Shown in pieces: positions 18,704 through 29,254 of a DNA stretch of 64,000 nt. The notes beneath the pieces were generated by a model. The model searched no databases and was not told where the DNA came from. It saw nothing but the letters and a program-made list of their open reading frames with translations. The DNA comes from Deltaproteobacteria bacterium. GTDB lineage: Bacteria > Desulfobacterota > Binatia > DP-6. The stretch spans positions 1 to 64,000 of the forward strand of contig VBKF01000095.1 of the NCBI GenBank assembly GCA_005888095.1, given 5' to 3'. The number at the start of each line of letters is the position of its first letter. The first letter of the stretch is position 1. The position numbers and the translations under genes are program-made.

Positions 18704-18733
18704 TTGACGCCGCGGCCACGCGGGGAGTATGCG
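18704..18733 (+). promoter_or_regulatory. candidate promoter of the Cys-rich secreted protein
   Basis: TTGACG at 18704-18709 and TATGCG at 18728-18733 are 18 bases apart. This lies in the 283-base gap after gpsA and would give a leader of about 170 bases ahead of the ATG at 18909. Confidence 0.35.
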
Positions 18734-18908
18734 CGGCGGCTGGAGGCCCATACCAAGGATGGATCGCCTGCTCGGGGGGGGCTGGCGTGGTGCGCGTCTG
18801 GAGCGACGGGGGCGCGCGTGGCGGCCGTGCTGCGGCTGGCGGGTAACGACGGCCAGACCTCCCCCAGTCCGTTCCCTAGCCCCGCCCGCCCAACCAGAGG
18901 AGGAGTCT

Positions 18909-20105
18909 ATGATGTCGAGACCGCACGCTCGCCTCGTGTTAGCCGCCGGCCTGATCGCGGGGATGCTCGCGAGGTCGGCCGCTGCGCAGCCCGCCGGAAC
19001 GGCGTGCACCAGTGCGCTGGACCCGGCCTGCACCCATCTCAAGTGCTACCAGATCAACGACAAGCCGAGCACCGTCGTCAGCAAGACGCCGCTTCTCCAG
19101 GTCGACAACCAGTTCGGCCGCGAGGTGCTCTACCGGCTGCAGCCGGTGATGCTTTGCGTGCCGTCGCAGAAGGCGTGCTGCTGTCCCGGAAGCATTGGTT
19201 GCAGCCAGCCGGGTGCCACCCAAGGATGCTCGGCGGCGAACTGCCTGCCGAACCCGATCCAGTCTCCCGGGCTCCCGCACTTCAAGTGCTACAAGATCAA
19301 GGCGAAGACGTGCCCCAACAATGACTGTACCACCGCCAAACCGATTGCGTTCCCCAAGAAGACGATCTTCGTCAACATGCAGGATCAGTTCGGTCGCGAG
19401 CTCAACATCCCGGTCGGCAATCCCGTGATGATCTGTGCTCCCACGCTCAAGGAGATCGTGGGGCTGCCATCGACGACCACGACGGTCACCACGTCGACGA
19501 CGACCACGACCACGACGACCGCCACCACGACGACCACGATCCAGTACTGTCACGATGACCCGCTCGTCGGCTGCACCGGGCCGTGCCCGCCGACGTTGCC
19601 TCCCGGGTCTCAGTGCATCAGGGACATGACCACCGGCAAGTGCGGTTGCGTCGCGCCGCCTGTTTGCTGTGAGTGCAACGGTGCGGCGGGGCCATTCTGC
19701 ACCAACACGAACGCGCAGTGCCCGAGCAACTGCATCACCTTCGCGAACGCGACGTGCGATCCGGCGACCCGCCACTGCGTGTGCGGGTTCTGTCACGATC
19801 CCGGTACCACCAACTGCACGAACATCCCGTGCTCCACGGGCCAGGCGTGTCCGACTGGCTTGTACTGTGACACCGCGTGCCAGCCACCCACGCCCGCGCC
19901 GTGCGACCCGTGCAAGACGCAGCCGCAGGGGTCGTGCGCCCCGGTATCGTGTCTCAGAGCCGACGGCACCAATTCGCAGTGCAAGCCGTCCGGGCCGGTT
20001 CCCGGCGGCACCTGCGACTGCTGCGGTCCGACCGGCGCCTTCTGCACGTCGGACTTCGATTGCTGCTCGAACATCTGCAACGTGACCGCTTCGACCTGCC
20101 AGTAG
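18909..20105 (+). CDS. secreted Cys-rich protein with Thr-rich linker
   Basis: 398 residues. ATG 18909 has GAGGAGGAG just upstream. A Sec signal peptide (residues 1-27, LVLAAGLIAGML) is followed by two related domains: residues 43-88 (HLKCYQI ... QVDNQFGREVLY ... PVMLCVPSQK) and 124-181 (HFKCYKI ... NMQDQFGRELNIP ... PVMICAPTLK). Each has paired Cys and a DxQFGRE core. A Thr-rich linker spans 189-210. The C-terminal region (214-398) holds about 40 cysteines in short CxxC/CxC spacings, like EGF/disulphide-rich modules. It is exported and probably folds with many disulphides outside the cytoplasm. Function unknown. It is alone, ended by a strong terminator. Confidence 0.85.
   Translation: MMSRPHARLVLAAGLIAGMLARSAAAQPAGTACTSALDPACTHLKCYQINDKPSTVVSKTPLLQVDNQFGREVLYRLQPVMLCVPSQKACCCPGSIGCSQPGATQGCSAANCLPNPIQSPGLPHFKCYKIKAKTCPNNDCTTAKPIAFPKKTIFVNMQDQFGRELNIPVGNPVMICAPTLKEIVGLPSTTTTVTTSTTTTTTTTATTTTTIQYCHDDPLVGCTGPCPPTLPPGSQCIRDMTTGKCGCVAPPVCCECNGAAGPFCTNTNAQCPSNCITFANATCDPATRHCVCGFCHDPGTTNCTNIPCSTGQACPTGLYCDTACQPPTPAPCDPCKTQPQGSCAPVSCLRADGTNSQCKPSGPVPGGTCDCCGPTGAFCTSDFDCCSNICNVTASTCQ
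19473..19541 (+). repeat. ACG/ACC triplet-repeat tract
   Basis: A low-complexity run of ACG and ACC codons with a few GTC, TCG and GCC codons, encoding the Thr-rich linker of the secreted Cys-rich protein. It could change length by slippage without breaking the frame in steps of three. Confidence 0.85.
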
Positions 20106-20185: not shown

Positions 20186-21541
20186 TCACGCCACTCGCTG
20201 CGTGTCTCCGCTTCCGGTGGCCGCACCCGTCGCATCGGCAAGCCGAAGGCGCAGCTGCGCCTGTGCGATGGTGCGGGCCGCGACGGGCTTGAGCCAGACC
20301 AAGGCCATGATCCCGGCCAGCAGGTCACAGGCGATCATCGCCCAGAAGACCCGCACCCAAGACCCGGTCGTTGCAAAGATCCAGGCGGCACCTGGAGCAG
20401 CAAAGACCGAGGCCAGTCCCTTGGCCGTATACACGATGCCGTAGTTCGTGGTGGCCCATGTCTTTCCAAACAGGTCCCCGGTGATCGAGGGGAACAGCGA
20501 AAAGATCTCCCCCCAGGCAAAGAAACACAACCCAGACAATACGATGAACCAGATGGGGCGGTGGATCAGCTGGAGCAAACCAAATACCGCCAACCCCTCC
20601 AGGGTGAAGGCGATGGACATGGTGTTTTCTCGGCCGATGTGGTCCGACACCCATCCCCAGAATGGCCGTGTCAATCCGTTCAGCACCCGGTCCACCTCGA
20701 TCGCCAGCACGAGCGCGGTCATGCCAAAGGCCACCACTACGCTGTCCACATGGTAGCTGACCGCCATGGGGTTGAGCTGCGCGGTTACGACCAGGCCGCC
20801 GAAGGCCACCAGGGTCATCATCAGGTAGATGACCCAGAACGACCCCGTGTGGAGCATCTGCCAGGGCGTCATGTCCACACTGGAAACACGCACCTTCGGC
20901 TTCGCTTGCGCCTCTTTCACCTTCCATCCGGGCGGCGCCCAGCCGGCCGGTGGCGTGGCGAGCACCAGCGCTGCCAGGACGACAACGATCCCCTGGATCA
21001 TCCCCCACGTGATCAGCGTGTGCTGGTAGCCGGAGGCCTTCATCATACTGGCGATGGGGGCGACCGTCAGCGCGGTTCCGATGCCATAGGCTCCGGAGGT
21101 GAGGCCGACGCACAACCCGCGATGGTCGGGGAACCACTTGAGCGCGTTGCCGATCGTTCCGCCATACACGACGCCCGCGCCAATGCCCCCCAGTCCGTAC
21201 CAGAAGTAGAGCTCGTACAGCGTGTCGGCTCGACCGGCCCCGATCCAGCCCAGCCCAACCAGCACGCCGCCGAGAGCCAGCATCAGCCGCGGTCCCAGCC
21301 GGTCGACCAGATACCCTTCAAAGGGGACGAGCCAGGTCTCGAGCCCGATGAACAGAGCAAACGTCCACTGGACGGCCGCCAGCGTGACGTTCAGATGGGC
21401 TTGCAAGGGCTTGGTGAACAGCGTCCACGTATACTGCAGGTTCGCGATGGCCATCATCGCGACGAGTCCGGCGAACAATTGGACCCACCGGTTGAGCAGG
21501 CGGCGTTCGGAAACGGCAATCGATACGTCGGATGCGTTCAC
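20186..21541 (-). CDS. oxlT: MFS transporter, OxlT-like (oxalate/formate antiporter)
   Basis: 451 residues from a GTG at 21541 preceded by GGGGAGG. Twelve hydrophobic helices of the major facilitator superfamily; family motif DRLGPRL after helix 2 and the OFA-family segments NLQYTWTLFTKPL and GGIGAGVVYGG near the N-terminus. OFA members exchange oxalate for formate or carry related monocarboxylates. The gene is the last of a minus-strand cluster with a 2-oxoacid:ferredoxin oxidoreductase whose alpha subunit has oxalate-type active-site residues, so oxalate uptake is the best guess. Assignment to OFA is strong; substrate is inferred from context. GC is lower than in the flanking housekeeping genes. 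Confidence 0.85.
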   Translation of the reverse strand: MNASDVSIAVSERRLLNRWVQLFAGLVAMMAIANLQYTWTLFTKPLQAHLNVTLAAVQWTFALFIGLETWLVPFEGYLVDRLGPRLMLALGGVLVGLGWIGAGRADTLYELYFWYGLGGIGAGVVYGGTIGNALKWFPDHRGLCVGLTSGAYGIGTALTVAPIASMMKASGYQHTLITWGMIQGIVVVLAALVLATPPAGWAPPGWKVKEAQAKPKVRVSSVDMTPWQMLHTGSFWVIYLMMTLVAFGGLVVTAQLNPMAVSYHVDSVVVAFGMTALVLAIEVDRVLNGLTRPFWGWVSDHIGRENTMSIAFTLEGLAVFGLLQLIHRPIWFIVLSGLCFFAWGEIFSLFPSITGDLFGKTWATTNYGIVYTAKGLASVFAAPGAAWIFATTGSWVRVFWAMIACDLLAGIMALVWLKPVAARTIAQAQLRLRLADATGAATGSGDTQRVA

Positions 21542-21641: not shown

Positions 21642-22685
21642 TCAGGCCGACCCGTTGCCCCCGTCTCGGACGGGGGTGGCGGTGTCGGCGTCTTTCCGGA
21701 ACGGGATGACTCCGGGAATCAACCACTTCTCCCACATCTCGTCCACTTTGCTCTGGAAATATTCCAAATCGTCGTCGGTGAAGTGAGCAAAGCGTCCCTG
21801 CTTGAGGAGGTATTCTCTCACCGGAAGGCGCTCCGAGCGCCCCTCGGCAATCTGCTTGGTCTTTCCCGTGAGTTTGAGCACGCCCTCCTCGACTTCGTAC
21901 AGCGGCCAGACACCAGTGCTGACCGCGAGCTCGCCCAGCTCGTGCGACAGGATGGGATCGTAGTCCCAGCCCTTGGGGCAAGGGTCGAGCGAGTGAATGA
22001 AAGTAGGCCCGCCAATCGATAGCGCCTTGCGCACGCTGTTCGTGGCCTGCAGGGCGTAGGACATGCACACCGTCGCCACGTACTTGCACGTGGGATGGCC
22101 GGCGGCGAGCATGCCCGCCATGTTCTTCTTCCAGCGGCGGTGCATGATGCGTTTCATTTTACCCGGCGGGCTGAACGTGGTGTGCGCCCCGTAGGGCGTG
22201 CTGCCGGAGAGCTGGATGTCGGTGTTGGCGTAGGACTCGTTGTCGTACATCAGGATGAGGAGGTTGTAATCGGGGTGAGTGAGCGCCGCCGAGATGGCGG
22301 AGAGGCCCATGTCGGCGCCGCCGCCGTCGCCGCAGAACGCAATCACGTTGATGGGTTCGCGCTTGATCTTGGCTTTTCGCATCAACGCCTTCAGGCCCGC
22401 GGCCGCGCCCATCGCCGCCGAGCCGCTGCTGCCCAGCTGAGTGTGCATCCAGGGCACCACCCAGGAGGTGCTGTAGTAGGTGGTGTTGGCCACGTACATG
22501 CACCCCGTGCTGCCCAGCACGATCGTCCGCGGGCCGGCCGCTTTGGCCATCATCTTCATCACCAGGGCCGATTCGCAGCCCTGGCAAGTGCGGTGGCCCG
22601 AGGTGAAGAACTCCTCGAGCGGGAGTTTCTTGACCCCCTTGATGGGATTCAACTTTTGGGTGGGAACATCGATCATCGTGTCCAT
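21642..22685 (-). CDS. oxalate oxidoreductase beta subunit (TPP-binding)
   Basis: 347 residues from ATG 22685. Thiamine pyrophosphate site: GDGGGADMGLSAISAA and the downstream MYDNESYANT. Iron-sulphur ligands of the proximal [4Fe-4S] cluster: the CQGC pair in HRTCQGCESALVMK, with Cys in STGCMYVA and VCMSYALQ as further ligands. It holds the TPP where a 2-oxoacid is decarboxylated and the first electrons leave. It is homologous to pyruvate:ferredoxin oxidoreductase beta subunits; the oxalate assignment comes from the alpha subunit. Sixteen bases after the alpha gene. Confidence 0.85.
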   Translation of the reverse strand: MDTMIDVPTQKLNPIKGVKKLPLEEFFTSGHRTCQGCESALVMKMMAKAAGPRTIVLGSTGCMYVANTTYYSTSWVVPWMHTQLGSSGSAAMGAAAGLKALMRKAKIKREPINVIAFCGDGGGADMGLSAISAALTHPDYNLLILMYDNESYANTDIQLSGSTPYGAHTTFSPPGKMKRIMHRRWKKNMAGMLAAGHPTCKYVATVCMSYALQATNSVRKALSIGGPTFIHSLDPCPKGWDYDPILSHELGELAVSTGVWPLYEVEEGVLKLTGKTKQIAEGRSERLPVREYLLKQGRFAHFTDDDLEYFQSKVDEMWEKWLIPGVIPFRKDADTATPVRDGGNGSA

Positions 22686-22701: not shown

Positions 22702-23925
22702 CTACTCGCGCAGGCCGATCCACTGAGTCGAAGCTTGTTGTTTACCGTCGGCCGCCTGATAGACGAGATCGGTCATCCTTCTCACATCGGGCACCGTCAC
22801 TTCGCGACCGCCCAGGCCACAGATGAAGCTCAGCAGCGGCGGCCGCCGGACGGCGGGATACATCGCGGCACGGACCTCGGTGGCCAGCACGCCGGAGAGG
22901 TACGGCGAACCGAACGAAAAGTCACGGTCAACAATGCCCACCGCGGCAAAGCGGCCAAGCGTCCGGGCCAGCTCCACAGCCGCGAACGGCCGGAACCATC
23001 GCACCCGCACGAAGCCGACTCGCTTCCCTTCCTTGCGCATTTGGCGGATGGCCACTTTGACGGGCGTGGAGAGCGTACCCATGCCCACCAGCACCACGTC
23101 GGCATCGGCGGTCTCGTACTCCTCGAAGAAGGGATTGCCGTACCGCCGTCCGAAGATCCGCTCGAACTGCGCATAGGCTTCGAGGATGACGTCATGCGCC
23201 CGCTCCATGGCCGCCGCGTTCTGCCGGCGGATCTCCATCAGCCAATCTTCGTTGGCTTGGGGGGCGACGGTGATGGGGTTGTCCGGATGGAGCAGCAGAT
23301 CGCCGCGGTTGTAGCGTGGGAGGAACGCGTCTACCGTCTCCTGCGGCGGAATCTTGACCAGCGCCTGAGAGTGGGTCAGGAAGGCGCCGTCGCAGCTGAT
23401 GGCGCAGGGGAGGAAGACGCGCCGGTCCTCGGCCACACGGTAGGCGATCAGCGCCGTATCGAGCGCCTCCTGGGCCGTATCCACCCAGACCAGCTGCCAG
23501 CCGAGATCGCGGACGGCGAGCGCGTCGTTGTGCTCCACGCCGAAGGCGCCCGGGTCATCGAGCGCGCGGTTGCCGACCATGGCCACCATGGGAATGCGCA
23601 GAGCCGGCGTCACGGTCAACGCCTCGAAGGCGTACATCCAGCCCACCCCGCTGCTGCCGCAGAACACCCGTGCGCCTACGGCCGAGGCGTGCTTGACGAT
23701 CTCGAACTGCGAGTGTTCGCTTTCCGCGACGATGTACTCGCAGTCCAGCTCCCCGTTGGCCACCAGCTTGGCCACATACTGCATCACGGTGTCGTAGGGT
23801 CGGATCGGGTACGCCGTGATCACGTCCACGTCAGCCAGCTTGCAGGCTACCGCAATGGCCTCGCTGCCGGTGATCAGGGCCGTGTGCTCGACTGGCTGCT
23901 CGATCGCTGCTCCCATCTGTGCCAT
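22702..23925 (-). CDS. oxalate oxidoreductase alpha subunit
   Basis: 407 residues from ATG 23925, with GGGGAG 9 bases upstream; a longer start at 23964 is less likely. A transketolase-like alpha subunit of the 2-oxoacid:ferredoxin oxidoreductase family (TGSEAIAVACKLADVDVI, then AESEHSQFEIVKHASAVG). The substrate loop reads YPIRPYD where pyruvate enzymes have YPITPS. From memory of the Moorella thermoacetica oxalate oxidoreductase structure, its oxalate-binding residues are Tyr28, Arg31, Arg109, Asp112 and Phe117; this protein has Tyr39, Arg42, Arg120, Asp123 and Phe128, all at a constant offset of 11. That is the basis for calling oxalate rather than pyruvate. Reaction: oxalate to two CO2 with two electrons to ferredoxin. 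Confidence 0.88.
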   Translation of the reverse strand: MAQMGAAIEQPVEHTALITGSEAIAVACKLADVDVITAYPIRPYDTVMQYVAKLVANGELDCEYIVAESEHSQFEIVKHASAVGARVFCGSSGVGWMYAFEALTVTPALRIPMVAMVGNRALDDPGAFGVEHNDALAVRDLGWQLVWVDTAQEALDTALIAYRVAEDRRVFLPCAISCDGAFLTHSQALVKIPPQETVDAFLPRYNRGDLLLHPDNPITVAPQANEDWLMEIRRQNAAAMERAHDVILEAYAQFERIFGRRYGNPFFEEYETADADVVLVGMGTLSTPVKVAIRQMRKEGKRVGFVRVRWFRPFAAVELARTLGRFAAVGIVDRDFSFGSPYLSGVLATEVRAAMYPAVRRPPLLSFICGLGGREVTVPDVRRMTDLVYQAADGKQQASTQWIGLRE

Positions 23926-23960: not shown

Positions 23961-25130
23961 TCACTCTCCGCCGCTCTCGATCATCGCCGGGATCTGCTCT
24001 TCATACTGCCCGCGGTAGCGGAAGCCGTGCGAGCGCTCCGGCCGGTGCTCGATCTTCTGCTCCAGCCACTTCCTGTAGCTCTCTTTGTCCTTCTTCCACA
24101 TCTCCCACTGGCTGGCGTTGTCGCAGAAGGCGACCTCATTGACCATGGTCACGCAATTCGGCACGGGACACACCGCCTCGCACACCCCGCACCCGCAGCA
24201 CGCTTCCATGTTCGCGTCGTACAAACCATCTGGGGTCACGTCGAAGCAGGAGTCCGGACACTGCAGCCAGCATAACGTGCATTTGATACAGGTCTCGAAA
24301 TCGACAACCGGCCGCATGGTGCGCGTGGTGAACTTCTTGAAGGTGGGGTTCCGCTCCGGCCGATAGCCGCCCATCGCCTGGCTCTCGGGATCTTGAATGG
24401 CGCCGCCCCGAGGAATGCTGGGAATGGCGATGCCCTCACGCATCTCCCACCACTTCGGCAATTCGAAGCGATACGGCTCTTCGGGATTGCCCTGGTGGGG
24501 CTCCACCGTGACGGTGCTGATACGCTCATATGAGCGGGCCGCCGAAGTGACCTTCAGGGGATCATTCCACTCGGCCAGGATGGCTTTTTGTACCGATTCC
24601 AGGCTGACTAGCTCGGGCAGGAGCTTGGCGATCGCGCCCAGGATGCGCACGTCGGTGTGGTCGTCCTTGTAGACCCACAACCCGGAGAAGCTGGGAATAC
24701 CCTTCACGATGGCGAGCCGGTAGGGGCATTCCTTGCGGTGGGCCATGGCGATGAGCGTTTCTGGCGGCTCCTTGGAGGTGACGATCAACGTTCCGCCAGG
24801 CTTCAGCAGCCGATTGATCGGCTGGAGACCGTACCAGGCCCACGACTCGACACCCTTCGCGAGCGTATCGTCCACGGCGATGGTGATGTCCACCTCTTGG
24901 GGCTCGTACTTGGCCATCCCTTCTTCGAGGGTGACGTCGTCGGTTGCGACGATGGCGAAGTTCTTGGCTGGAATCCCGTTGCGTTCGGGACTGTCGCCAT
25001 AACGGCCAAACGAGATGCCCGGCTTGCCTTCCTGATGTGCCGCCAGAACGATCGTTCGGCTGATATTCTTGGCCAATGTCTTCTGAAAGATCCCTCGGTA
25101 GACGATTTCGACCGCAAATAGCCGACCCAT
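23961..25130 (-). CDS. oxalate oxidoreductase fused gamma-delta subunit
   Basis: 389 residues. The N-terminal 195 residues match the gamma subunit (RTIVLAAHQEGKPGISFGRY; VDITIAVDDTLAKG), and the C-terminal 110 the two-cluster ferredoxin delta subunit, with CIKCTLCWLQCPDSC and CCGCGVCEAVCPVPNC holding eight cluster Cys. It relays electrons from the catalytic core to soluble ferredoxin. A gamma-delta fusion is the arrangement described for oxalate oxidoreductase, and it is less common in other family members. It is 18 bases downstream of the regulator gene and 35 bases ahead of the alpha subunit. Confidence 0.87.
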   Translation of the reverse strand: MGRLFAVEIVYRGIFQKTLAKNISRTIVLAAHQEGKPGISFGRYGDSPERNGIPAKNFAIVATDDVTLEEGMAKYEPQEVDITIAVDDTLAKGVESWAWYGLQPINRLLKPGGTLIVTSKEPPETLIAMAHRKECPYRLAIVKGIPSFSGLWVYKDDHTDVRILGAIAKLLPELVSLESVQKAILAEWNDPLKVTSAARSYERISTVTVEPHQGNPEEPYRFELPKWWEMREGIAIPSIPRGGAIQDPESQAMGGYRPERNPTFKKFTTRTMRPVVDFETCIKCTLCWLQCPDSCFDVTPDGLYDANMEACCGCGVCEAVCPVPNCVTMVNEVAFCDNASQWEMWKKDKESYRKWLEQKIEHRPERSHGFRYRGQYEEQIPAMIESGGE

Positions 25131-25148: not shown

Positions 25149-25889
25149 TCAGAGCTTCTTCAGAATGATTTCCTCGATCTTCTCCAGGTGCTGGCGCATC
25201 GCGCGCTCCGCCGCGGGGGCGTCGTGTCGCTTGATGGCGCGCAGAATCTGCTGGTGCCCGCTGAAGGACTTTTCAAGACGCCCCTCGAACTGCAACGAGC
25301 GCTCCCGGCTGGCGCGGAGCAGATCCATCAACACGTCGAGCACCTTCAGGACCACGCTGTTCTTGGCCGCCATGGCAATGTTGTAATGGAACTCGGAGTC
25401 TTCCTCGATGGCCAATTCGCGCCGGCGGACCTTCTGCCCTTGTCGGCGGAGGATGTCTTCCAGGTGGGCGATTTCCTCGGGGGAAGCGTGGCTGGCGGCG
25501 CGGGCGGCCAGGGGCGGCTCGATCATCTTGCGCACGTCCAGCAGCTCGCCCACCAGCGTGCGCTTGCGAACCAGCACGGCGGCCAGCGGGTTGACGAGCG
25601 AGTCGGCCGAGACGTCGCAGACGACCGTACCCTCGCCTTGGCGGGGCTCCACCAGCCCCGCGAGCTCCAGCGTGCGGATGGCGTCCCGCACCGAGCTGCG
25701 GCTGACCCGGAACATCACGCACAGCTCTCGCTCGGGGGGAAGCTTGTCGCCGGGCGTCAGTCCGCCTTCGACGATGAGGCGCTCGATCTGCTTGGCGACC
25801 TTTTCGTGCAGGCGGGTCCTGCGGACCGCCTCGAACTCTGGCTTGAGGATGCCCAGCACGGCGGGTGCCCTCACCAAAGGTCTGGTCAT
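25149..25889 (-). CDS. GntR/FadR-family regulator of the oxalate operon
   Basis: 246 residues from ATG 25889. N-terminal winged helix (KQIERLIVEGGLTPGDKLPPE, RVSRSSVRDAIRTLELAGLV, residues about 28-90) and a C-terminal all-helical FCD effector domain with metal/ligand residues in EFHYNIAMAA and SGHQQILRAI. FadR/PdhR/LldR members bind small carboxylates and usually repress nearby genes. As the first gene of the cluster it probably controls the operon and itself; a palindrome overlaps its start codon. An extension to 26051 is in frame but lacks sense. Confidence 0.88.
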   Translation of the reverse strand: MTRPLVRAPAVLGILKPEFEAVRRTRLHEKVAKQIERLIVEGGLTPGDKLPPERELCVMFRVSRSSVRDAIRTLELAGLVEPRQGEGTVVCDVSADSLVNPLAAVLVRKRTLVGELLDVRKMIEPPLAARAASHASPEEIAHLEDILRRQGQKVRRRELAIEEDSEFHYNIAMAAKNSVVLKVLDVLMDLLRASRERSLQFEGRLEKSFSGHQQILRAIKRHDAPAAERAMRQHLEKIEEIILKKL

Positions 25890-25896
25890 CAGACCA
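25883..25896. promoter_or_regulatory. candidate operator for the FadR-type regulator
   Basis: TGGTC-ATCA-GACCA, a perfect palindrome nested in the longer inverted repeat GGTCTG-GTCAT-CAGACC at 25879-25895. TGGT...ACCA half-sites are typical of FadR/LldR/PdhR subgroup operators. The site covers the start codon of the regulator, suited to autorepression. Confidence 0.45.
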
Positions 25897-25904
25897 CTAC
25901 CTGC

Positions 25905-25933
25905 TTCAAAATCCACCTGCCGCCTGCTGTCAA
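25905..25933 (-). promoter_or_regulatory. candidate promoter of the oxalate operon
   Basis: A consensus TTGACA -35 box (25933-25928, minus strand) with TTTGAA 17 bases downstream as a weak -10. Transcription would start close to the operator palindrome at 25883-25896. Confidence 0.35.
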
Positions 25934-26074
25934 GGGGGTGGTTGGGCTCGGTAGGAGCAGGTCCGCACCGCGGGGGGAGCGCCGATCCCGTTGACCTTCG
26001 GGCGTGGACGGGCCTAGAACCCGGGCTGCCTCGACGACCCGCTCGCGCCATCCCCGGCGCAGAAGGAGACAGCC

Positions 26075-27571
26075 ATGCCGGAGTACCAGCTCTACATCGA
26101 CGGGCAGCTCTGCGACGCCGAAGGCGGCAGGACCGCCGACTCGATCAACCCCGCCACCGAAGAGCCGTGGGCCCGGGTGGCACGCGCCAGCCGCAAGGAC
26201 ACCCAGCGCGCGATCGCCGCGGCGCGCCGGGCATTCGACGAGGGGCCCTGGCCGCGCATGAGCCAGGCGGACCGCGCGAAGATCCTGAACCAGGTCGCCG
26301 ACGGTCTCGAGGCTCGCAGCCAGGAGCTGGCGGCCGTCGAGACGCATGACTCGGGCGGCACCATTCGCAAGACCTCGGGCGACATGATGATGGGCGCCGC
26401 GCAGCTCCGCTACTTCGCCGAGATGGCGCCGAAGCTGCCGCTGTGGGAGGAGATCCAGGTCCCGCAGTTCCCCGCCCAGTCGAAGAACTACCTCCAGCGG
26501 GAGCCGATCGGCGTCTGCGGCCAGATCATCCCGTGGAACTTCCCGCTCATGATGGCGGTGTGGAAGATCGGGCCGGCGCTCTGTGCGGGGAACACGCTTG
26601 TGCTGAAGCCCGCGAGCGACACGCCGTGCTCGGCCCTCGAGCTCGCCAAGATCATCGACCAGACCGACCTCCCGAAGGGCGTCCTCAACGTGATCCACGG
26701 CAGCGGCGCCGAGTGCGGCGAGGAGCTCTGCACGAGCCCGCTGGTCGACAAGGTGGCGCTCACCGGCTCGACGGAGGTCGGTCGCCGCGTCCAGCAGCTT
26801 GCCTCGGGGACCATCAAGAAGGTCACGCTCGAGCTCGGCGGCAAGTCGGCCAACATCATCCTCGACGACGCCGACCTCGAGATGGCGGTCGACGGCTCGC
26901 TCTTCGGCTGCTTCTTTCACCAGGGCCAGGCGTGCGAGTCGGGCACCCGCCTCTTCGTCTCCGAGAAGCTCCACGACGAGGTGGTGGGGCGGCTCGTCGA
27001 GCGGACGAAGCCGCTCACCGTCGGCGACCCGATGGACTTCGCCACCTGCCAGGGCCCGCTCATCTCCGCACGCCAGCGCGAGACGGTGCTCGGCTACATC
27101 AAGAAGGGCGTCGACGAGGGGGCGAAGGTCGCCGTCGGCGGCAAGCGGCCGGAGCACCTCGCGAAGGGCTACTACGTCGAGCCGACCATCTTCGTCGACG
27201 TGAAGAACAACATGACGATCGCGCAGGAGGAGATCTTCGGTCCCGTCCTCTGCGTCATCCGCTACAAGACGATCGACGACGCCATCCGGATGGCCAACGA
27301 CTCGATCTACGGCCTCGGCGGTGCGGTCTGGTCACGGGACAAGGAGAAGGCCCTCGTCGTCGCGAAGCAGATGCGGACGGGCACGGTGTGGGTCAACGAG
27401 TACCACCTGCTTTCGGTTGCGGCCCCGTTCGGAGGCTACAAGCAGAGCGGGATCGGGCGCGAGTTCGGTCTCGAGGGCATCCTCGAGTACACCGAGGTGA
27501 AGCACGTGCACGTCGACCAGGTCGACAACCGCGGCGGGAAGTTCTGGTACGGCGCGCTCTTCGGCGCCTAG
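26075..27571 (+). CDS. NAD(P)-dependent aldehyde dehydrogenase
   Basis: 498 residues. ATG 26075 has GAAGGAG 7 bases upstream. Aldehyde dehydrogenase signatures: IPWNFPLMMAVWKIGPAL (nucleotide/Asn), the general base Glu in LELGGKSAN and the nucleophile Cys in HQGQACESGTR, then EEIFGPV. It oxidises aldehydes to acids, probably in the cytoplasm. The following DUF779 gene is a frequent partner of acetaldehyde-type dehydrogenases. It is divergent from the oxalate operon regulator. Substrate not determined. Confidence 0.95.
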   Translation: MPEYQLYIDGQLCDAEGGRTADSINPATEEPWARVARASRKDTQRAIAAARRAFDEGPWPRMSQADRAKILNQVADGLEARSQELAAVETHDSGGTIRKTSGDMMMGAAQLRYFAEMAPKLPLWEEIQVPQFPAQSKNYLQREPIGVCGQIIPWNFPLMMAVWKIGPALCAGNTLVLKPASDTPCSALELAKIIDQTDLPKGVLNVIHGSGAECGEELCTSPLVDKVALTGSTEVGRRVQQLASGTIKKVTLELGGKSANIILDDADLEMAVDGSLFGCFFHQGQACESGTRLFVSEKLHDEVVGRLVERTKPLTVGDPMDFATCQGPLISARQRETVLGYIKKGVDEGAKVAVGGKRPEHLAKGYYVEPTIFVDVKNNMTIAQEEIFGPVLCVIRYKTIDDAIRMANDSIYGLGGAVWSRDKEKALVVAKQMRTGTVWVNEYHLLSVAAPFGGYKQSGIGREFGLEGILEYTEVKHVHVDQVDNRGGKFWYGALFGA

Positions 27572-27583
27572 CGGACAACCCGT

Positions 27584-27901
27584 ATGCGGGTGGGGGCAAC
27601 CCCGCTGGCCGAGACGGTCGTCGCCCGGGTGCGCGCGGCGCACCTGGGCGACGAGCTCGTCTTCGTCTTCGGATCCGGGTGCTGCGAGGGGACGGCGCCC
27701 CACCTCTTTGCCCGCTACACGCTCACGCCGGAGCAGGAGCCGGTGGGCGCGGTCGCCGGCGTCGGGGTGTTCGCCGATGCCCACGTCCGCCGGCTGTACC
27801 GCGACCGCACGATCGTCATCGACGCGGAGGCGGATCCGCTCGCCGACGGGTTCTCGGCCGAGATCCCCCTCGGCTGGCGATTCGTCCTCCGGCTTGCATG
27901 A
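27584..27901 (+). CDS. DUF779 family protein
   Basis: 105 residues. The family hallmark is a GSGCCEGTAPHLFA segment with two adjacent Cys, followed by DAHVRRLYRDRTIVIDA. DUF779 proteins are nearly always encoded beside an aldehyde dehydrogenase, as here (12 bases after it), and are thought to help it, but the activity is not established. No signal peptide. Confidence 0.85.
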   Translation: MRVGATPLAETVVARVRAAHLGDELVFVFGSGCCEGTAPHLFARYTLTPEQEPVGAVAGVGVFADAHVRRLYRDRTIVIDAEADPLADGFSAEIPLGWRFVLRLA

Positions 27902-27928
27902 TTCCGCGCCGAGGCAGAGAGTAGGGCC

Positions 27929-29254
27929 ATGGCGAGCTCAACCCTGACCGTCATCGACAACCGGACGGGCAAGCGCTACGAGCTCCCGATCGAGCACGGC
28001 ACGATCCGCGCGGCCGACCTCGCGCAGATCCGGGTCGCCGGCGAGCCGGGCCTCGTCAGCTACGACCCCGCTCTCATCAACACGGCCACGTGCAAGAGCA
28101 AGGTGAGCTACATCGACGGCGAGCGCGGCATCCTGCGCTACCGCGGCTACCCGATCGAGGAGCTGGCCGAGAAGAGCAGCTTCCTCGAGACCGCCTACCT
28201 GATCGTCAAGGGCGAGCTGCCGACCACGTCGCACTTCCGGATGTGGCAGCACAACATCAAGATGCACACGCTCGTCCACGAGAACGTGAAGCACTTCATC
28301 GAGGGCTTCCGCTACGACGCGCACCCCATGGGCATCCTCATCGCCACGGCCGGCGCGCTCTCCACCTTCTACCCCGAGGCCAAGAACATCATGGACCTCG
28401 AGACGCGGCGGATGCAGACCCGGCGGCTGATCGGCAAGATGCCGACGATCGCCGCGTTCGCGTATCGCCACAGCCGCGGGCTGCCCTACGTGTATCCGGA
28501 CAACGATCTCACCTACACGGGCAACTTTCTCTCGATGATGTTCAAGATGACGGAGCTCAAGTACCGGCCGGATCCGGTGCTCGAGCACGCGCTCGACGTC
28601 CTCTTCATCCTGCACGCCGATCACGAGCAGAACTGCTCGTCCACGACCATGCGCGCGATCGGCAGCGCGCACTCCGACCCCTACGCCGCGGTGGCCGGCG
28701 CGGCGGCGGCCCTCGGCGGGCCGCGCCACGGCTCGGCGAACGAGGAAGTGGTCCACATGCTGCACGAGATCGGCTCGGTGGACCGCGTCCCGGATCTCAT
28801 CAAGCGCGTGAAGGCGGGCGAGCTGCGGCTCATGGGCTTCGGCCACCGCGTCTACAAGAACTACGATCCGCGCGCGCGGCTCATCAAGAAGATCGCCTAC
28901 GACGTCTTCGAGGTGACGGGGAAGAACCCGCTCATCGAGATCGCGCTCGAGCTCGAGCGGATCGCGCTCCAGGACGACTACTTCGTGTCGCGCCGGCTCT
29001 ACCCGAACGTCGACTTCTACTCGGGCATCATCTACGAGGCGATGGGGCTGCCCGTCGCCATGTTCCCGGTGATGTTCGCGATCGCCCGCACCGCGGGCTG
29101 GATGGCGCAGTGGGCCGAGATGGTCCTCGACGAGGAACAGAAGATCGTGCGCCCGAAGCAGATCTACATCGGCTACGACGAGCGACACTACGTGCCGCTC
29201 GACCAGCGGCGCGAGGGCGGGGCGCCCGAGACCGAGGTGCCCGGGCCGCTCTGA
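27929..29254 (+). CDS. gltA: citrate synthase
   Basis: 441 residues, type II size. Catalytic His in LHADHEQNCSSTTMR and in GFGHRVYKNYDPR, catalytic Asp in YPNVDFYSG. It condenses oxaloacetate and acetyl-CoA, linking with the succinate dehydrogenase of this window in the citric acid cycle. The N-terminal beta domain (residues 1-50) typical of hexameric NADH-sensitive forms is present. Confidence 0.96.
   Translation: MASSTLTVIDNRTGKRYELPIEHGTIRAADLAQIRVAGEPGLVSYDPALINTATCKSKVSYIDGERGILRYRGYPIEELAEKSSFLETAYLIVKGELPTTSHFRMWQHNIKMHTLVHENVKHFIEGFRYDAHPMGILIATAGALSTFYPEAKNIMDLETRRMQTRRLIGKMPTIAAFAYRHSRGLPYVYPDNDLTYTGNFLSMMFKMTELKYRPDPVLEHALDVLFILHADHEQNCSSTTMRAIGSAHSDPYAAVAGAAAALGGPRHGSANEEVVHMLHEIGSVDRVPDLIKRVKAGELRLMGFGHRVYKNYDPRARLIKKIAYDVFEVTGKNPLIEIALELERIALQDDYFVSRRLYPNVDFYSGIIYEAMGLPVAMFPVMFAIARTAGWMAQWAEMVLDEEQKIVRPKQIYIGYDERHYVPLDQRREGGAPETEVPGPL

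Follow-up and report, generated by a model that had tools for sequence, protein, structure and literature searches.

Genetic context of the alpha subunit

The question raised by this locus is whether the 2-oxoacid:ferredoxin oxidoreductase (OFOR) encoded in the window (i.e., the whole 64,000-nucleotide stretch analysed here) acts on oxalate, as the oxalate oxidoreductase (OOR) of Moorella thermoacetica (MtOOR) does, and how far a first-pass annotation was right to claim that its active site matches that of MtOOR. The features concerned are as follows:

25149..26051, minus strand: GntR/FCD regulator, first gene of the operon, probably starting near 25889
23961..25130, minus strand: fused gamma-delta subunit, 389 aa, with a C-terminal 2x[4Fe-4S] ferredoxin domain
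22702..23925, minus strand: alpha subunit (407 aa), with a TPP/substrate-binding domain I (POR_N) and a domain II (PFOR_II)
23800..23802, minus strand: Arg42 codon (YPIRP; MtOOR Arg31; Thr/Ser in pyruvate-type enzymes)
23536..23565, minus strand: switch-loop equivalent, codons 121-130, ALDDPGAFGV
21642..22685, minus strand: beta subunit (347 aa), which has the TPP pyrophosphate/Mg domain and the cysteines of the proximal [4Fe-4S] cluster
20186..21541, minus strand: oxalate/formate MFS antiporter (TIGR04259)

The genes run head to tail in the order GntR, gamma-delta, alpha, beta and antiporter, with gaps of 18, 35, 16 and 100 bp, and the alpha reading frame extends on the minus strand from an ATG at 23925 to a stop codon ending at 22702. 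The OFOR subunit set is complete in this operon, from the TPP domains and the proximal [4Fe-4S] cluster to the delta domain with its 2x[4Fe-4S], and gamma-delta carries both CxxCxxCxxxC motifs. The best PDB match of each subunit was its OOR counterpart (alpha: 5c4i, E = 2.3e-92, phmmer; beta: 5.7e-84; gamma-delta: 1e-20). The best NCBIfam matches were likewise the three OOR subunits, all below cut-off (equivalogs NF045790/1/2: 362/500, 334/590 and 94/230 bits). Upstream, aldehyde dehydrogenase and citrate synthase genes diverge from the operon (26075-29254, plus strand); beyond the antiporter, 18729-20105 (plus strand) encodes a Cys-rich predicted protein with a long Thr run and no Pfam family at cut-off.

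The antiporter passes the curated TIGR04259 cut-off (468 vs 335 bits), and its nearest solved structure is OxlT of Oxalobacter formigenes (8hpj), a member of the same family; R292 and K374 match OxlT R272 and K355, i.e., both oxalate-binding charges are kept. It differs from Oxalobacter OxlT in its placement within an OFOR operon and in a genome where no oxc was found over the family cut-off. OFA-family transporters take other small anions as well, which counts against the oxalate reading.

Marker residues of the alpha subunit

Tyr39, Arg42, Arg120, Asp123 and Phe128 of the window protein align with MtOOR Tyr28, Arg31, Arg109, Asp112 and Phe117, all at an offset of 11, just as the first-pass annotation had it; Tyr28, Asp112 and Phe117 we take to be active-site residues. 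The argument that five residues at one offset are unlikely by chance does not hold: the alignment to 5c4i is without gaps across residues 18-206, and the constant offset therefore follows from homology and is one fact, not five independent ones. We thus rejected it as a statistical argument.

What separates the enzymes is which residues are shared with pyruvate-type sequences. When 56 alpha subunits were aligned, Tyr39 was present in 12 and Arg120 in all 13 of the YPI[TS] enzymes, whereas R42, D123 and F128 were present in none of the 13 and in all YPIRP sequences. On this alignment, Tyr39 and Arg120 are general to OFORs, and Arg42, Asp123 and Phe128 are markers of the OOR group. The claimed active-site match thus stands for these three residues, including the Arg in place of the pyruvate-enzyme Thr; Tyr39 and Arg120 are not OOR-specific, and a further MtOOR residue that the first-pass annotation did not list, Asp116, is Ala127 here. 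The window protein has both the YPIRP motif, with the Arg31 equivalent, and the Arg109 equivalent of OOR, and Arg42 takes the place of the YPITP substrate Thr of pyruvate:ferredoxin oxidoreductase (PFOR). The YPIRP motif has been described as unique to MtOOR, in which Arg31 supplies the oxalate binding site, Arg109 is the general carboxylate arginine of the active site, and Arg31 and Asp116 act in a bait-and-switch mechanism (PMC5020499).

Could the enzyme simply be the organism's pyruvate or branched-chain 2-oxoacid:ferredoxin oxidoreductase, with a harmless Thr to Arg change? The two types belong to the same superfamily, and the PFOR of Methanosarcina acetivorans (9bt4) is the second-best match of alpha both by sequence and by fold. 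PFORs (9bt4, 6cin, 1b0p) share with the window enzyme the superfamily fold, the TPP and [4Fe-4S] domains and the Arg109 equivalent, but have YPITP, lack the D112/F117 loop and are CoA-dependent. We regard this explanation as very improbable, as R42, like the D-P-G-x-F-G loop, is invariant over many phyla (best 80 of at least 485 relatives), both being absent in YPI[TS] enzymes, the antiporter and oxalate genes lie close by, and PDH/OGDH-type E1 genes are present in the organism's own genome. Moreover, single mutants in the YPITP motif of StOFOR1 were inactive or had a strongly reduced kcat (PMC5020499).

An altered switch

Within the switch loop, D123 and F128 correspond to MtOOR D112 and F117, but the Asp of the bait-and-switch mechanism is missing, Ala127 standing at the position of Asp116, and Asp124 replaces Pro113. 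In the beta subunit, Gly145 of MtOOR, next to the cofactor site, is replaced by Asp156 (YANTD); the same position is Gly in 12/12 YPI[TS] beta subunits compared. MtOOR Asp108 is also replaced, by Asn. Asp124 and Ala127 were invariant at 80/80 loci, these being the best 80 of at least 485 relatives, i.e., those most similar to the query, retrieved with patterns that permitted either residue at both positions. By comparison, the Asp116 position is Asp in 7/7 canonical sequences. Since Asp116 is replaced by Ala across the window clade, we treat the clade as a sister of OOR whose active site does not simply duplicate that of Moorella; with the NCBIfam cut-offs also missed, we do not claim full OOR membership. 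Both points count against the oxalate reading.

In the AlphaFold2 model of alpha, residues 121-130, the switch-loop equivalent, form the only internal segment with pLDDT < 50 (the N-terminus is also below 50), which suggests that the loop may be mobile.

Given these observations, the enzyme is best read as a predicted CoA-independent oxalate:ferredoxin oxidoreductase, OOR-like in its presumed working. Oxalate would be imported by OxlT, perhaps in exchange for formate, and the dianion would be bound by Arg120 and Arg42 next to TPP. Decarboxylation would be followed by oxidation of the second carboxylate to CO2 without CoA, the two electrons passing to ferredoxin via the beta and delta clusters. 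The putatively mobile loop 121-130 would keep its Asp and Phe and lack the acid of MtOOR position 116, whose role may have passed to the newly gained acids at alpha-124 and beta-156; the electrostatic switch would therefore be altered. We consider it probable that the GntR-gamma/delta-alpha-beta-OxlT operon encodes oxalate uptake together with an oxalate:ferredoxin oxidoreductase that depends on TPP and [4Fe-4S] clusters and has such a switch.

Modelled structure and phylogeny

The alpha model had a mean pLDDT of 88 (44-sequence alignment), and its top fold match was 5c4i (TM 0.91/0.94, rmsd 2.3), with 9bt4 behind. In an alpha tree built after removal of R42 and the loop columns, with 9bt4 as the PFOR row, the YPIRP group (canonical OOR plus the window clade) was separated from the YPI[TS] enzymes with support of 100/99, and the window clade (100/99) and canonical OOR (100/100) were each separate, with long branches among the outgroups (tool warning). 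A quick beta tree recovered the same three groups. Both trees place the window clade next to canonical OOR, as its sister, and away from the YPIT/S enzymes. Kinship with OOR is well supported by the best PDB match in sequence and fold, R42/D123/F128, both subunit trees and the antiporter in the operon.

Compared with MtOOR (5c4i, 5exd, 5exe), the window enzyme shares the alpha, beta and gamma-delta subunits, YPIRP, the D112 and F117 equivalents, the beta cluster cysteines and the fold, with 42% identity between the alpha subunits. Besides the replaced residues, it differs in a longer gamma-delta (389 vs 315 aa), in an operon with an oxalate/formate antiporter, and in its hosts, which are soil MAGs of many phyla and not an acetogen. 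Canonical-type OOR operons also occur in the window's own phylum (L013, L014, L016, L017, L019, L020). They have YPIRP as in the window (FPIRP in L013), but their DPPGDFG switch loop is like that of Moorella with Asp116 kept, they fall in a separate clade, gamma and delta are separate genes at the loci inspected, and a GntR regulator and TctCBA genes lie near several of them. At four further canonical-type loci (L121, L122, L123, L126), a 711-756 aa protein resembling an AAA+/CDC48-type ATPase by eye precedes the OOR genes in 4/4 cases.

Distribution and neighbourhoods of relatives

A scan of GTDB representative genomes returned at least 485 relatives. The closest 80 of these all come from MAGs and belong to Acidobacteria, 'Deltaproteobacteria'/Myxococcota, Rokubacteria, Armatimonadetes, ANGP1, Gamma-, Beta- and Alphaproteobacteria, and others; the window clade spans soil MAGs of Acidobacteria, Rokubacteria, 'Deltaproteobacteria', Armatimonadetes and Pseudomonadota. 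Within the window's genus, 3/3 genomes carry the gene, and no gene of the window-clade type was found in four other members of its family. The nearest relatives, among the matches listed, include Acidobacteria MAGs at 88-89%, suggesting inter-phylum transfer or mis-binning.

Among these best 80 of at least 485 relatives (raw counts), an OxlT homologue lies directly downstream at 24 of the 57 loci with enough flank and anywhere at the locus in 34/80. About half of the loci have no OxlT homologue in the flanking DNA covered, and 20/80 have a homologue of TctA (tripartite tricarboxylate transporter) instead; both groups count against the oxalate reading. At one Chloroflexi locus (L096 10228-12692), two MFS-like genes, judged by eye, follow the operon, another transporter swap. 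An oxalyl-CoA synthetase (best PDB matches 6qjz and 5ie0, both oxalyl-CoA synthetases) and a PanE-like reductase are found at 7-8 of the 80 loci, mostly in Acidobacteria; in Methylobacterium, PanE acts as an oxalyl-CoA reductase. Frc-like genes occur at 4 and FprA (ferredoxin-NADP reductase) at 5 of the 80, with frc-like, ferredoxin and FprA genes added at proteobacterial loci.

These neighbourhoods bear on whether an OOR-related pocket might serve to oxidise a different small dianion or C2-C3 acid, for example glyoxylate, mesoxalate or oxaloacetate. The loss of Asp116 and the new Asp at alpha-124 and beta-156 would fit such a substrate, as would the BhcA-like aminotransferase and PanE-like reductase that adjoin some relatives' loci and point to glyoxylate chemistry, and the TctCBA-type transporters at some loci. 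However, the OxlT binding pair and the nearby oxalyl-CoA synthetase genes suggest that oxalate is what is imported, and TctCBA-type genes adjoin canonical-type OOR in the same phylum too; we therefore judge another acid unlikely. A reversed reaction, in which oxalate is made from CO2 and reduced ferredoxin, finds some footing in the reversibility that OFORs can show (PMC13340500, review), yet seems extremely improbable for a reaction without the driving force of a CoA ester, beside an importer-like antiporter and catabolic neighbours.

In the organism's own genome, we detected this single OFOR alpha and no second one, and no close match to oxalyl-CoA synthetase. With no oxc over its cut-off either, the OOR-like enzyme is the sole candidate oxalate route among the oxalate enzymes searched for. 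No formate dehydrogenase alpha subunit scored over the cut-off, the best reaching 625 vs 666 bits (C97:55548-57587); this homologue is a possible link to the antiporter's formate. OFORs are generally oxygen-sensitive, and this stands against the oxalate reading in a genome with two haem-copper oxidase genes.

Implications for oxalate turnover in soil

Soil oxalate turnover is usually ascribed to oxc/frc and oxdC. One survey covered oxc, frc, oxdC and oxlT only and saw the other pathways as belonging to eukaryotes, for the most part plants, or to particular bacteria, e.g. acetogens (PMC10192776), and another used Oxc/Frc/OxlT and glyoxylate-assimilation gene sets (PMC12927642); the word 'oxidoreductase' is absent from both, leaving OOR outside the two oxalotrophy surveys. 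Our literature search, with subscription papers and preprints outside its scope, returned no paper on soil OOR by title and no activity assay on any enzyme of the window clade. The clade is thus apparently an undescribed, large soil branch of an enzyme family hitherto tied to acetogens. The odds are roughly even, in our estimation, that in a wide range of soil phyla oxalate is oxidised via ferredoxin by this large, overlooked OOR sister clade, whose switch acid would have shifted to alpha-124 and/or beta-156, and that certain lineages combine this with oxalyl-CoA-based glyoxylate assimilation, such that soil oxalate would provide both energy and carbon. If the clade does oxidise oxalate, a low-potential, CoA-free route would be widespread in soil MAGs and overlooked by oxc/frc-type gene sets, and the natural loss of Asp116 would allow the proposed bait-and-switch mechanism to be tested directly.
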